The notes beneath the pieces were generated by a model, which did no database searches, had not been told where the DNA came from, and saw only the letters and a program-made list of their open reading frames with translations. A program made the translations under genes and the position numbers. This document shows positions 36,859 to 39,711 of a DNA stretch of 64,000 bases, piece by piece. The DNA is from Sandaracinaceae bacterium. GTDB lineage: Bacteria > Myxococcota_A > Polyangia > Polyangiales > Sandaracinaceae. The DNA lies in contig JAVJQK010000071.1 of the NCBI GenBank assembly GCA_040218145.1, positions 62,001-126,000 of the forward strand, written 5' to 3'. Position 1 is the first letter of the stretch; every line of letters starts with the position of its first letter.

Positions 36859-36877
36859 CTGTGCAAATCGGGCACAG
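36859..36877 (+). promoter_or_regulatory. Candidate upstream activator site (inverted repeat CTGTGC-N7-GCACAG)
   Basis: A 6-bp inverted repeat with 7-nt centre, ending about 73 bp upstream of the sigma-54-type -24 element at 36951. Distance and symmetry suit an enhancer-binding protein site. A second small palindrome, GGGGA-N6-TCCCC (36883-36898), follows. Confidence 0.4.
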
Positions 36878-36950
36878 TGGCTGGGGATCGATGTCCCCGG
36901 CAGCCGCCGATCTGCCTGAAAACGGGGGCTTGGCGGGCCCGTCCGGGCGC

Positions 36951-36965
36951 TGGTAGGGCTCTTGC
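36951..36965 (+). promoter_or_regulatory. Sigma-54-type promoter of the Flp-like pilin gene
   Basis: TGGTAGGGCTCTTGC has GG and GC separated by exactly 10 nt, and matches TGGYR-N6-TTGC (consensus TGGCAC-N5-TTGC). Transcription would start near 36976-36978, about 47 nt before the GTG at 37024. Sigma-54 control of pilin genes is known in other bacteria, which supports the assignment. Confidence 0.6.
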
Positions 36966-37010
36966 GTGAGCCTCGCGCGTGCGCTGTCTGCAGAGCCCAG
37001 ATGATTCCGG

Positions 37011-37016
37011 TACCAT
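37011..37016 (+). promoter_or_regulatory. Possible second promoter (-10) at the pilin start
   Basis: TACCAT ends 7 nt before GTG 37024, the same arrangement as TACCAT before the TPR gene (61134-61139). If active it would give a leaderless transcript in addition to the sigma-54 one. Confidence 0.4.
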
Positions 37017-37023
37017 CGGACAC

Positions 37024-37218
37024 GTGAGGCGACGGGACCGGTTCGAAGCGCTGCTCGCCGACGAGGCCGGGCTGACGACCGTGGAGTACATCATCGTGCT
37101 CTGCCTCATCGCCGTGGTCGGCTTCGCCATCTGGAAGCAGTTCGGCCAGACCGTCGAGTACAAGGCCAAGGGCGCCACGAACGTGGTGAGCGACCTGCCG
37201 ACGGAGTCGTCCGAATGA
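37024..37218 (+). CDS. Flp/type IVb-like small pilin
   Basis: 64 residues from GTG 37024. A short basic/acidic leader (VRRRDRFEALLADEAG) is followed by LTTVEYIIVLCLIAVVGFAI: cleavage after the Gly would leave a mature N-terminus with Glu at +5 and Tyr at +6, the Flp pilin signature (G-x-T-x-x-E-Y plus ~20 hydrophobic residues). The tail is only ~30 residues, typical of Flp subunits. No Tad assembly gene or prepilin peptidase is in the window, so assembly would depend on genes elsewhere. The stop overlaps an in-frame ATG of the next gene (37215), linking it to the Cys-rich lipoprotein. An earlier GTG at 36979 is in frame but adds 15 residues. Confidence 0.8.
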   Translation: MRRRDRFEALLADEAGLTTVEYIIVLCLIAVVGFAIWKQFGQTVEYKAKGATNVVSDLPTESSE

Positions 37219-37241
37219 AGGTCGCGAGTCCAGGGGGAACG

Positions 37242-38891
37242 ATGTTTCGCAAGCTGCTGACGCTCGCCGCCATCGCGGGGCTGACCTCGTGCACGCCGGG
37301 CTCGTCCGGCCCGCCCGCCGAGGACGACCCCGAGGTCGAGGTCGAGATCCTGCGTGAGATCCAGCTGACCCAGAACGCCAGGCTCCCCGAGTCGCGGGAC
37401 GGCAGCCTGGTCGACGTGGAGGTGTTCGAGGACCGGCTGGTCTTCATCTACGAAGGCACGCCGAAGCTCGCCCTCGAGTCGGGCCACGTCGTCTCCGGCG
37501 TGCTGCACGGCGGCTACTTGCGGCGGCTCGTCGAGCGGCGCGAGCTGTCGCCCGAGCGCATCGAGTGGACCACCGAGCACGCGGAGCTGGGCGAGCTGAT
37601 CGGCGACGGCCACTTCATCGTGCACATGCGGCCGGGCGACGGGGACGACAGCTTCGTGCTCCGCACCGGCGACGGCGACGTGGGCGCGTCCACCGAGCCG
37701 CTCGACAGCGGCTGGAGCCTGCTCACGCCCGAGGTGCGGAACATCAGCTGCGGCGGCGGGCGCACCGGCACCGTCACCTTCGATCCCCGCTTCGACATGG
37801 ACGCCGACGCGGACATCGAGATCGACCTCCGCTGGAGCTTCGGCCGCTTCTACATTCCGCGGGGCGAGCTGCACTACGCGCGCTTCGAGCTGATGGGCTC
37901 GATCGCCCCCGGGATCACCATCGAGACGAGCGAGAGCACGGCCGTCTCGTGTGCCTGGAGCCTGACGAGCTTCCTCCGCGAGCGCGGCGTGGGCGTGCCG
38001 AAGCGCGAGTGGGTCACCACCTTCCCGGTGGGCCCGGTGCCGGTCGCCGTCACCCACACCATCGAGCCGAGCTTCGACATCACGGTGGGCGGGTCGGTCG
38101 AGACCGGGGCGTCCACGATGTCCGCCGACGTGACCCTCGGCTTCCGCGCGGGCGCGGTCTACGACCGGGAGGGCGGCTGGCGCGGCATCTGGGATCCGCA
38201 GCGCAGCGGCAGCGTGAGCCTGACCGCGAGCGAGCCGGGCACCTTGACCGTGACGGCCGGCGCCGGCGGCGCGGTGGGCTACCTCGCCAAGCTCTACGAC
38301 ACGGCGGGCCCCGGCGTGAGCCTCGGGCCGTCGATGACGGGCAACTTCCGGGTCCTGCCCGACCGCTGCACCTGGGAGGCCGACGCGAGCGCGGGGCTGG
38401 GCGTGACGGTCCGGGCGAAGCTCGACATCCCCGCCTTCGACTACACGCTCGCCGAGTACAGCCACAGCGAGAACCTCGTCAGCGCGCAGATCGCGATGTC
38501 GATGGGGACCTTCCCGTGGTGTGAGGACGGGGGCACGCCCGACGGCGGGATGCCGATGGGCGACGGCGGCGGGCCGAGCGACCCCTGCGAGGCGGCGGGC
38601 GCCACCTGCCAGACCTGCAACGAGACCGCGGGCTGCGGCTTCTGCGCGACCACGGGGACGTGCATGAGCGACGCGCGCGCCACCGAGTGCGGGAGCGACC
38701 TCGACTGGCAGGACGGGCCGAGCGAGTGTGAGCCGTGCACCGGCTACGGCAGCTGCGGGGCCTGCGTGGGCGACGCCTTCTGCGGCTGGTGCGCGTCGGC
38801 GGGCCGCTGCATGACGGCCGAGAGCGGCGGCGCGCCGCCCGAGCCCTGCGACGACTGGCAGTACAGCATCACGCCGGCGATGTGTCGCTGA
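37242..38891 (+). CDS. Large lipoprotein with C-terminal PSI-like cysteine repeats, pilin-linked
   Basis: 549 residues from ATG 37242, chosen because GGGGG (37233-37237) precedes it and it gives a proper lipoprotein signal (MFRKLLTLAAIAGLTSC). A start at 37215 overlapping the pilin stop is possible. The body (~20-440) is beta-rich with no named domain. After an Asp/Gly/Met-rich linker (~440-460) come two cysteine-rich modules, CEAAGATCQTCNETAGCGFC and CTGYGSCGACVGDAFCGWC..., each resembling PSI/plexin repeats (C..C..C....CGWC). Extracellular and disulphide-bonded by prediction. Close coupling to a pilin suggests a pilus-associated or adhesin role, unproven. The last 23 bp overlap the convergent GGDEF gene. 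Confidence 0.75.
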   Translation: MFRKLLTLAAIAGLTSCTPGSSGPPAEDDPEVEVEILREIQLTQNARLPESRDGSLVDVEVFEDRLVFIYEGTPKLALESGHVVSGVLHGGYLRRLVERRELSPERIEWTTEHAELGELIGDGHFIVHMRPGDGDDSFVLRTGDGDVGASTEPLDSGWSLLTPEVRNISCGGGRTGTVTFDPRFDMDADADIEIDLRWSFGRFYIPRGELHYARFELMGSIAPGITIETSESTAVSCAWSLTSFLRERGVGVPKREWVTTFPVGPVPVAVTHTIEPSFDITVGGSVETGASTMSADVTLGFRAGAVYDREGGWRGIWDPQRSGSVSLTASEPGTLTVTAGAGGAVGYLAKLYDTAGPGVSLGPSMTGNFRVLPDRCTWEADASAGLGVTVRAKLDIPAFDYTLAEYSHSENLVSAQIAMSMGTFPWCEDGGTPDGGMPMGDGGGPSDPCEAAGATCQTCNETAGCGFCATTGTCMSDARATECGSDLDWQDGPSECEPCTGYGSCGACVGDAFCGWCASAGRCMTAESGGAPPEPCDDWQYSITPAMCR

Positions 38892-39711
38892 CCCAGCGAT
38901 CTCGCCCGGCCGCCTTGGCGGCATAGAGGGCCGCGTCGGCGCGCGTGAGGAGCGCGTCGTCGAGCGGGCCCACCGCGACGCCGATCGACGTGGTCACGTC
39001 GACCGAGCCGCCTTCGACCTCGACCGGCGCTCCTCGCACGGCCTCGCACGCGCTCTGTGCCACGCGATGCGCGACGGCGTCTCCCGCGCCCTTGAGGATC
39101 ACCAGGATCTCCTCGCCGCCGACGCGGGCCACCAGATCGCCCTGACGCACGAGGGGGCTGAGCCGCCGCGCGACCTCTCGCAGGACGGCGTCACCCGCGG
39201 CGTGGCCATGCGTGTCGTTGATCCGCTTGAAGTGGTCGAGGTCGAGGGCGAGCACGCTCGCGAGGCGCCCGGCCTCTTCCAGCTGGAACAGCTCCAGCGC
39301 TCTGCGATTGGCGAGGCCGGTGAGCGGATCCCGCTCGGTCTCGTCGGCGAGGGCGCGGATGGCGCGCTGCTGGGTGGCGAGGGTGACCACCAACCATCCG
39401 GCGCCCACGTAGCCGACCACGGTGCTCACCGCGTTCGACACCAGCTGCGCGTCCTCACCCACCGTGAAGGTCACGCGGGCGAGCGAGAGCGGATCGCCGA
39501 CGGGCCCGAAGAAGATGCGCGCGGCCGAGCAGACGAGCGCGAGCAGGAGCAGCTCCGCGCGAGGCAGCCGCATGGCGGCCATCACGATCGGCACGAAATA
39601 CAGGACCGGCAGCCCCACCGGGGTCGCGATCAGCGCGTCGAGCCCGATGACCACGGCGGCGCCGAGCCACGCGATCAGTCGCGTTCGTTTCCGCAGGGGG
39701 GAGGGCGGCAT
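38869..39711 (-). CDS. Membrane diguanylate cyclase (GGDEF domain)
   Basis: 280 residues. The N-terminal ~115 residues have about four membrane helices (LIAWLGAAVVIGLDALIATP, LPVLYFVPIVMAAMRL, AELLLLALVCSAARIFFGP, VVGYVGAGWLVVTLA), a MASE-like sensor. The GGDEF domain follows: DPLTGLANRRALELF, ALDLDHFKRINDTHGHAAGD, and the active-site variant VGGEEILVIL (GGEE with I instead of F, still competent in many cyclases). An I-site RQGD lies five residues before GGEE, so product inhibition by c-di-GMP is expected. Makes c-di-GMP from GTP. Start ATG 39711 is 29 bp from the divergent gene's ATG. Confidence 0.93.
   Translation of the reverse strand: MPPSPLRKRTRLIAWLGAAVVIGLDALIATPVGLPVLYFVPIVMAAMRLPRAELLLLALVCSAARIFFGPVGDPLSLARVTFTVGEDAQLVSNAVSTVVGYVGAGWLVVTLATQQRAIRALADETERDPLTGLANRRALELFQLEEAGRLASVLALDLDHFKRINDTHGHAAGDAVLREVARRLSPLVRQGDLVARVGGEEILVILKGAGDAVAHRVAQSACEAVRGAPVEVEGGSVDVTTSIGVAVGPLDDALLTRADAALYAAKAAGRDRWVSDTSPA

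Follow-up and report, generated by a model that had tools for sequence, protein, structure and literature searches.

The pilin-lipoprotein locus

The window, by which we mean the whole 64 kb stretch analysed here (G000:C71:62001-126000, from the host genome of a marine myxobacterium, 11.06 Mb in 148 contigs), contains a short Flp-type pilin gene and, after a gap of 23 bp on the same strand (counted to the start ATG at 37242), the gene of a cysteine-rich lipoprotein, called LP below. The locus comprises the following features.

36859-36877: exact inverted repeat CTGTGC-N7-GCACAG
36951..36965, + strand: predicted sigma-54-like -24/-12 promoter element TGGTAGGGCTCTTGC, 73 bp upstream of the pilin start
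37024..37218, + strand: Flp-type (Tad, type IVb) prepilin, 64 aa, predicted cleavage after G16 (codon 37069-37071), mature E5/Y6
37232..37238, + strand: ribosome binding site AGGGGGA of the LP gene, read directly from the sequence
37242..38891, + strand: Tad-associated PSI-repeat lipoprotein (LP), 549 aa, SPII signal, lipobox LTS-C17 (Cys codon 37290-37292)
37293..38531, + strand: LP core domain, about 400 aa, all-beta, family-defining, without Pfam or NCBIfam match
38580..38873, + strand: two tandem Cys-rich PSI modules (about 38580-38729 and 38736-38873), PF01437 and plexin PSI structure match

A GGDEF diguanylate cyclase gene (38869-39711) is convergent with the LP gene, the two sharing 23 bp at their ends; in G004 (L068) this neighbour has not been retained.

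The pilin gene runs from a GTG at 37024 to a stop codon at 37216-37218. Direct reading gives a basic leader, VRRRDRFEALLADEAG, a predicted cleavage between G16 and L17 (G16/LTTVEY) and the mature sequence LTTVEYIIVLCLIAVVGFAIWKQFG, with glycine at -1, E5 and Y6 and a single hydrophobic helix, the characters of a Flp/Tad prepilin. Together with the alignment to Tad-locus pilins, this bears out the minimal Flp pilin with mature E5/Y6 recognised in the first-pass annotation. Matches to Pfam models lie under the curated cut-offs (DUF4244, 5e-5; Flp_Fap, 0.015, with 15.5 bits against a cut-off of 32.2). Pilins from the Tad loci of family f7 also score below the Flp_Fap cut-off, so that this model is insensitive to the present lineage. 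Homologues of the window pilin occur in 43 of 56 relatives.

The same annotation had the pilin stop overlapping a possible start of a lipoprotein of about 550 residues. An ATG at 37215 does overlap the stop and would give 558 residues, but the ATG at 37242 is the better start, with its AGGGGGA ribosome binding site and a compact signal peptide like that of homologues. The signal peptide is followed by the lipobox LTSC, whose cysteine is invariant in a 13-member alignment and present in at least 90% of 19 sequences. At the C-terminus, one PSI repeat exceeds the PF01437 cut-off (2.9e-7, 31.1 bits versus 23.1), and a second is recovered by structural alignment with a plexin PSI domain (Z 7.1, rmsd 1.5 A over 47 residues), giving the module both the sequence and the fold of PSI repeats. 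The description as a cysteine-rich, PSI-repeat lipoprotein thus stands.

Between the lipobox and the PSI modules lies a core that matched no Pfam or NCBIfam family. Its AlphaFold model (pLDDT 81.6, pTM 0.77, from 39 sequences) predicts an N-terminal beta subdomain followed by long amphipathic strands, an amphipathicity compatible with a barrel or a sandwich alike. Foldseek searches of the PDB and of viral models gave no match to this fold at E <= 0.001, and a PDB sequence search with LP returned weak PSI matches and chance matches only. Outer-membrane barrels and MTP, which appeared among the VIA-align 2 rows for the core, were set aside as lying within noise (Z <= 6.2).

The upstream region

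A sigma-54 promoter ahead of the pilin had been proposed, and the predicted element holds up well. TGGTAGGGCTCTTGC has GG at -24 and GC at -12, ten bases apart and near TGGCACG-N4-TTGC, and is the one place in the 64 kb window that matches the relaxed consensus TGGYRNRN4TTGC exactly, against 0.42 matches expected. Its score is 11.7 with an approximate weight matrix, derived from what is generally known of the consensus, a value equalled by only two sites in 64 kb on both strands and reached in 1.3% of control upstream regions and 0.8% of shuffles. The element is aligned and kept upstream of the nearest homologous pilin, that of G004 (TGGCGGCGTTCTTGCG), and an rpoN gene is present in the host genome. 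Across this order, sigma-54-like sites are over-represented upstream of Flp genes compared with control genes (Mann-Whitney p = 1.2e-7). Strong examples are found in G062 (TGGCACCCGAGTTGCT), at G042:C11 and before the first Flp gene of the Tad loci of G001, G003, G004 and G007, and such a site is absent from some pair pilins (e.g. G035, G085 and G021). In the literature on sigma-54 and Flp, the Pectobacterium matches concern VasH, with no flp or tad gene regulated by it (PMC3767616).

The G042:C11 gene (L080:4848-5045) is an orphan Flp pilin without LP; its sigma-54 site, TGGAACGCTCCTTGCT, is near consensus, and its product shares 70% identity with the pilin of the G042 pair. Repeated motifs of the GTGTCAC type lie 5' of the sigma-54-like site of f7 pair pilins (L177:12380-12520, L178:15190-15330) and are candidate activator sites.

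The CTGTGC-N7-GCACAG repeat, which had been read as an upstream site, exists exactly as described, but a regulatory role is unsupported. About 0.11 repeats of the same geometry are expected in such a gap, or 1.2 when spacers of 3-12 are allowed, and the repeat is not kept in G004. As an enhancer or regulatory site it was dropped on these two grounds.

Conservation of the pair

We searched 183 genomes of the order with an LP profile of 13 sequences, scanned the surroundings of the LP matches with a Flp profile and called genes in these neighbourhoods with a purpose-written codon-usage caller. Seventeen species of families f1, f4, f7 and f12 have a Flp gene and an LP-family gene as immediate neighbours in the same orientation: G000 (with the conspecific G182), G004, G042, G066, G062, G052, G083, G014, G037, G027, G021, G097, G087, G098, G020, G035 and G085, the pairs of G020, G035 and G085 having been recovered with a later profile of 19 sequences. 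The order is reversed, LP preceding the pilin, in G052 and G083. The search in other genomes that the first-pass annotation had called for therefore found its pilin-lipoprotein coupling to be conserved, and the lack of conservation that it had named as a refuting outcome did not occur.

The lipoproteins of f7 and f12 are homologous to those of f1 and f4 (hhalign probability 99.3, E 7e-21, 449 columns, about 450 residues), and remote members were recovered with an LP profile that included none of them. In the LP tree (41 rows, with some long branches unsure), linkage to flp appears on four separate branches. As each genome holds only about one to three Flp-type matches, chance adjacency would be of the order of 1e-4 per LP locus. 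Many LP homologues have no Flp neighbour (e.g. in G007, G003, G005, G052:C4, G000:C14 and the g82 genomes), and LP is therefore not strictly dependent on a pilin.

Outside the core, the C-termini of LP homologues are variable and consist of PSI repeats, other Cys-rich tails or, in one case, a low-scoring HNH domain, a pattern which suggests a conserved core with exchangeable heads within this order. The LP core is also found across the phylum in larger open frames, without Flp neighbours. The HNH case is a paralogue in G042:C129 (L176:905-3496), whose C-terminal extension gives a weak HNH-type nuclease match (PF14279, 4e-5, below the cut-off) and resembles a polymorphic-toxin architecture on a lipoprotein.

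Relation to Tad loci

The pair had been described as lying outside any Tad locus. This is locally true, since the 64 kb window yielded no Tad gene and the pair is not adjacent to tad or cpa genes there, but it is misleading for the genome and for its relatives. The host encodes a Tad assembly machine on contig C50, at about 86-113 kb, with genes for CpaA, TadE, a TadG-like protein, CpaB, CpaC, FHA-CpaF, TadB, TadC, a TadD-like protein and a second CpaF-type ATPase, and this locus includes a pilin 68% identical to that of the window. Between a pair pilin and the Tad-locus pilin of the same genome, identity is usually 64-86% (G087, at 43%, is the exception), as expected if both share one machine.

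Two further observations concern the C50 locus. A cluster of the type VI secretion spike type (VgrG-like, PAAR-like, DUF2169 and pentapeptide-repeat genes; L067:971-7762) lies inside it, with the cpaB-side genes on one flank and flp-cpaA-tadE on the other, and a partial protein-kinase-like gene directly adjoins cpaB (L105:10119-11336).

In several relatives the pair is part of a tad locus. In the f7 genomes G014, G037 and G027, the flp2 and LP genes directly precede cpaB, in the order flp - cpaA - tadE - tadG-like - tadF-like - (unknown) - flp2 - LP - cpaB - cpaC - FHA-cpaF; the f7 exception is G021, where the pair lies apart from its cpaB. The contig of G032 opens at LP and continues with cpaB - cpaC - FHA-cpaF - tadB - tadC, and the pair adjoins or sits among tad genes in G087, G097 and G098. 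Closer to the window, in G001 and G006 of the same family, LP heads a second tad operon, LP-cpaB-tadB-tadC-..-flp-tadE-..-tadG-tadF, again directly before cpaB. CpaB/RcpC is encoded in 13 of 13 other genomes checked, most of them with the pair and two (G007 and G003) with LP only. An isolated pilus of its own, as first imagined, thus gives way to a satellite of a Tad system encoded elsewhere in the genome.

A proposed accessory module

We favour, with moderate confidence, the interpretation that flp and LP serve the cell's Tad pilus system as a dispersed accessory module. Because relatives keep the pair together, and often inside the tad cluster, LP is probably an accessory of the Tad pilus that has not been named before. 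Under a specific condition, sigma-54 RNA polymerase and an activator would transcribe the pilin gene, with which LP, 23 bp downstream, is probably co-transcribed. The Tad prepilin peptidase encoded on C50 would cut the prepilin at G16/L17, and the TadA/B/C machine of the same contig would polymerise it, so that it joins the C50 pilin as a minor or alternative subunit. LP, to judge from its signal peptide and lipobox, would leave the cytoplasm by the Sec route, receive its lipid at Cys17 and be delivered to the outer membrane. Since LP directly precedes cpaB/rcpC in the operons that contain it, it may act at or near the outer-membrane exit of the Tad system, displaying beside the pilus a C-terminal binding module that varies between lineages (here two PSI repeats). 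Together, pilin and LP would adapt the pilus to a particular surface or partner. A tip or base adhesin, as the first-pass annotation had it, is possible, but LP is more likely to sit at the outer-membrane base or surface, since a pilus tip is an awkward site for a protein with a lipid anchor.

A bolder and unlikely extension would make LP the founder of a new Tad component class, a lipoprotein of the outer membrane that docks at the Tad exit and bears exchangeable C-terminal modules, so that one machine is re-equipped by satellite flp-LP cassettes. The modules would include the PSI adhesin, other Cys-rich domains and the HNH nuclease, as heads either bound to the surface or delivered.

To a predation module resembling Kil, a contact-dependent killing pilus in which LP presents or tethers prey-binding or toxic C-terminal modules, we likewise assign a low probability. 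Myxobacterial Tad/Kil pili kill prey, according to the relevant passages of PMC12075869 and PMC8460266; the former also places the locus number of KilP outside both kil clusters and treats KilK and KilO as Flp-type minor adapter pilins, and a Tad-unlinked pilin, flp4, is described in PMC5430801 as required for Bdellovibrio predation. The HNH-type domain of the G042:C129 paralogue (PF14279, 4e-5, below the cut-off) would fit the same idea, but the LP of the window ends in PSI repeats and no nuclease, and the known Tips are minor-pilin trimers, not lipoproteins.

Slightly less probable still is a pseudopilin-dependent surface display, in which a short Flp pseudopilus would push LP through the outer membrane as in type II secretion. 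The genes are close and on the same strand, LP ends in disulphide-rich modules of an exposed type and a Tad secretin is available in the genome; against this, LP occurs in many genomes without any Flp neighbour, its own lipobox provides it with a Sec/Lol route, and Flp pilins normally form long pili. A coincidental neighbourhood, in which a Flp copy that is spare or in decay happens to adjoin the gene of an unrelated surface lipoprotein, might be read from the many LPs without a pilin and the orphan pilin of G042:C11 without LP, but it is largely refuted and very improbable given the linkage in 17 species of four families, the placement inside tad operons and the fact that pilin and LP diverge yet remain intact.

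Known systems and significance

Flp pilins outside a tad locus have precedents in Bdellovibrio flp3 and flp4 (PMC5430801) and in the major pilin KilP of Myxococcus (MXAN_5121), whose locus number falls outside the two kil clusters (PMC12075869). As the passages describing them present these pilins, the window pilin resembles them in being a short Flp pilin with the G/XXXXE(Y) motif (the slash marking the cleavage), encoded away from the machine genes in a genome with more than one Flp. It differs in that a specific lipoprotein family travels with the pilin, whereas those passages report no lipoprotein partner. The Kil Tip clusters with KilK and KilO, as presented in PMC12075869, are similarly dispersed genes by which a Tad pilus is customised, one for a Flp-type minor pilin among them, but the Tip proteins described there are minor pilins of the KilL/M/N type, whereas LP starts with the signal peptide of a lipoprotein in place of a prepilin leader.

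The outer-membrane lipoprotein TadD, in the account given in PMC10499894, offers a parallel in that a lipoprotein gene lies within tad operons. The TadD-like gene of the host encodes a small TPR protein and is separate in the genome, whereas LP is all-beta, has 550 residues and carries C-terminal modules. With PSI (plexin-semaphorin-integrin) repeat proteins, LP shares its C-terminal modules by sequence and structure, but the likeness is limited to its last 100 residues and the core has no sequence relation to them. For this order, we found no description in the open-licence literature of a lipoprotein linked to Flp, or of LP before cpaB. Satellite Flp pilins are thus already known, and the linked lipoprotein family appears to be new.

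If confirmed, the module would add an outer-membrane accessory to Tad pili, and LP would serve as a marker to locate dispersed Tad modules in myxobacterial genomes. It would also suggest how cassettes at other sites in the genome adapt a single pilus machine to particular uses, in parallel to the Kil Tip cassettes.
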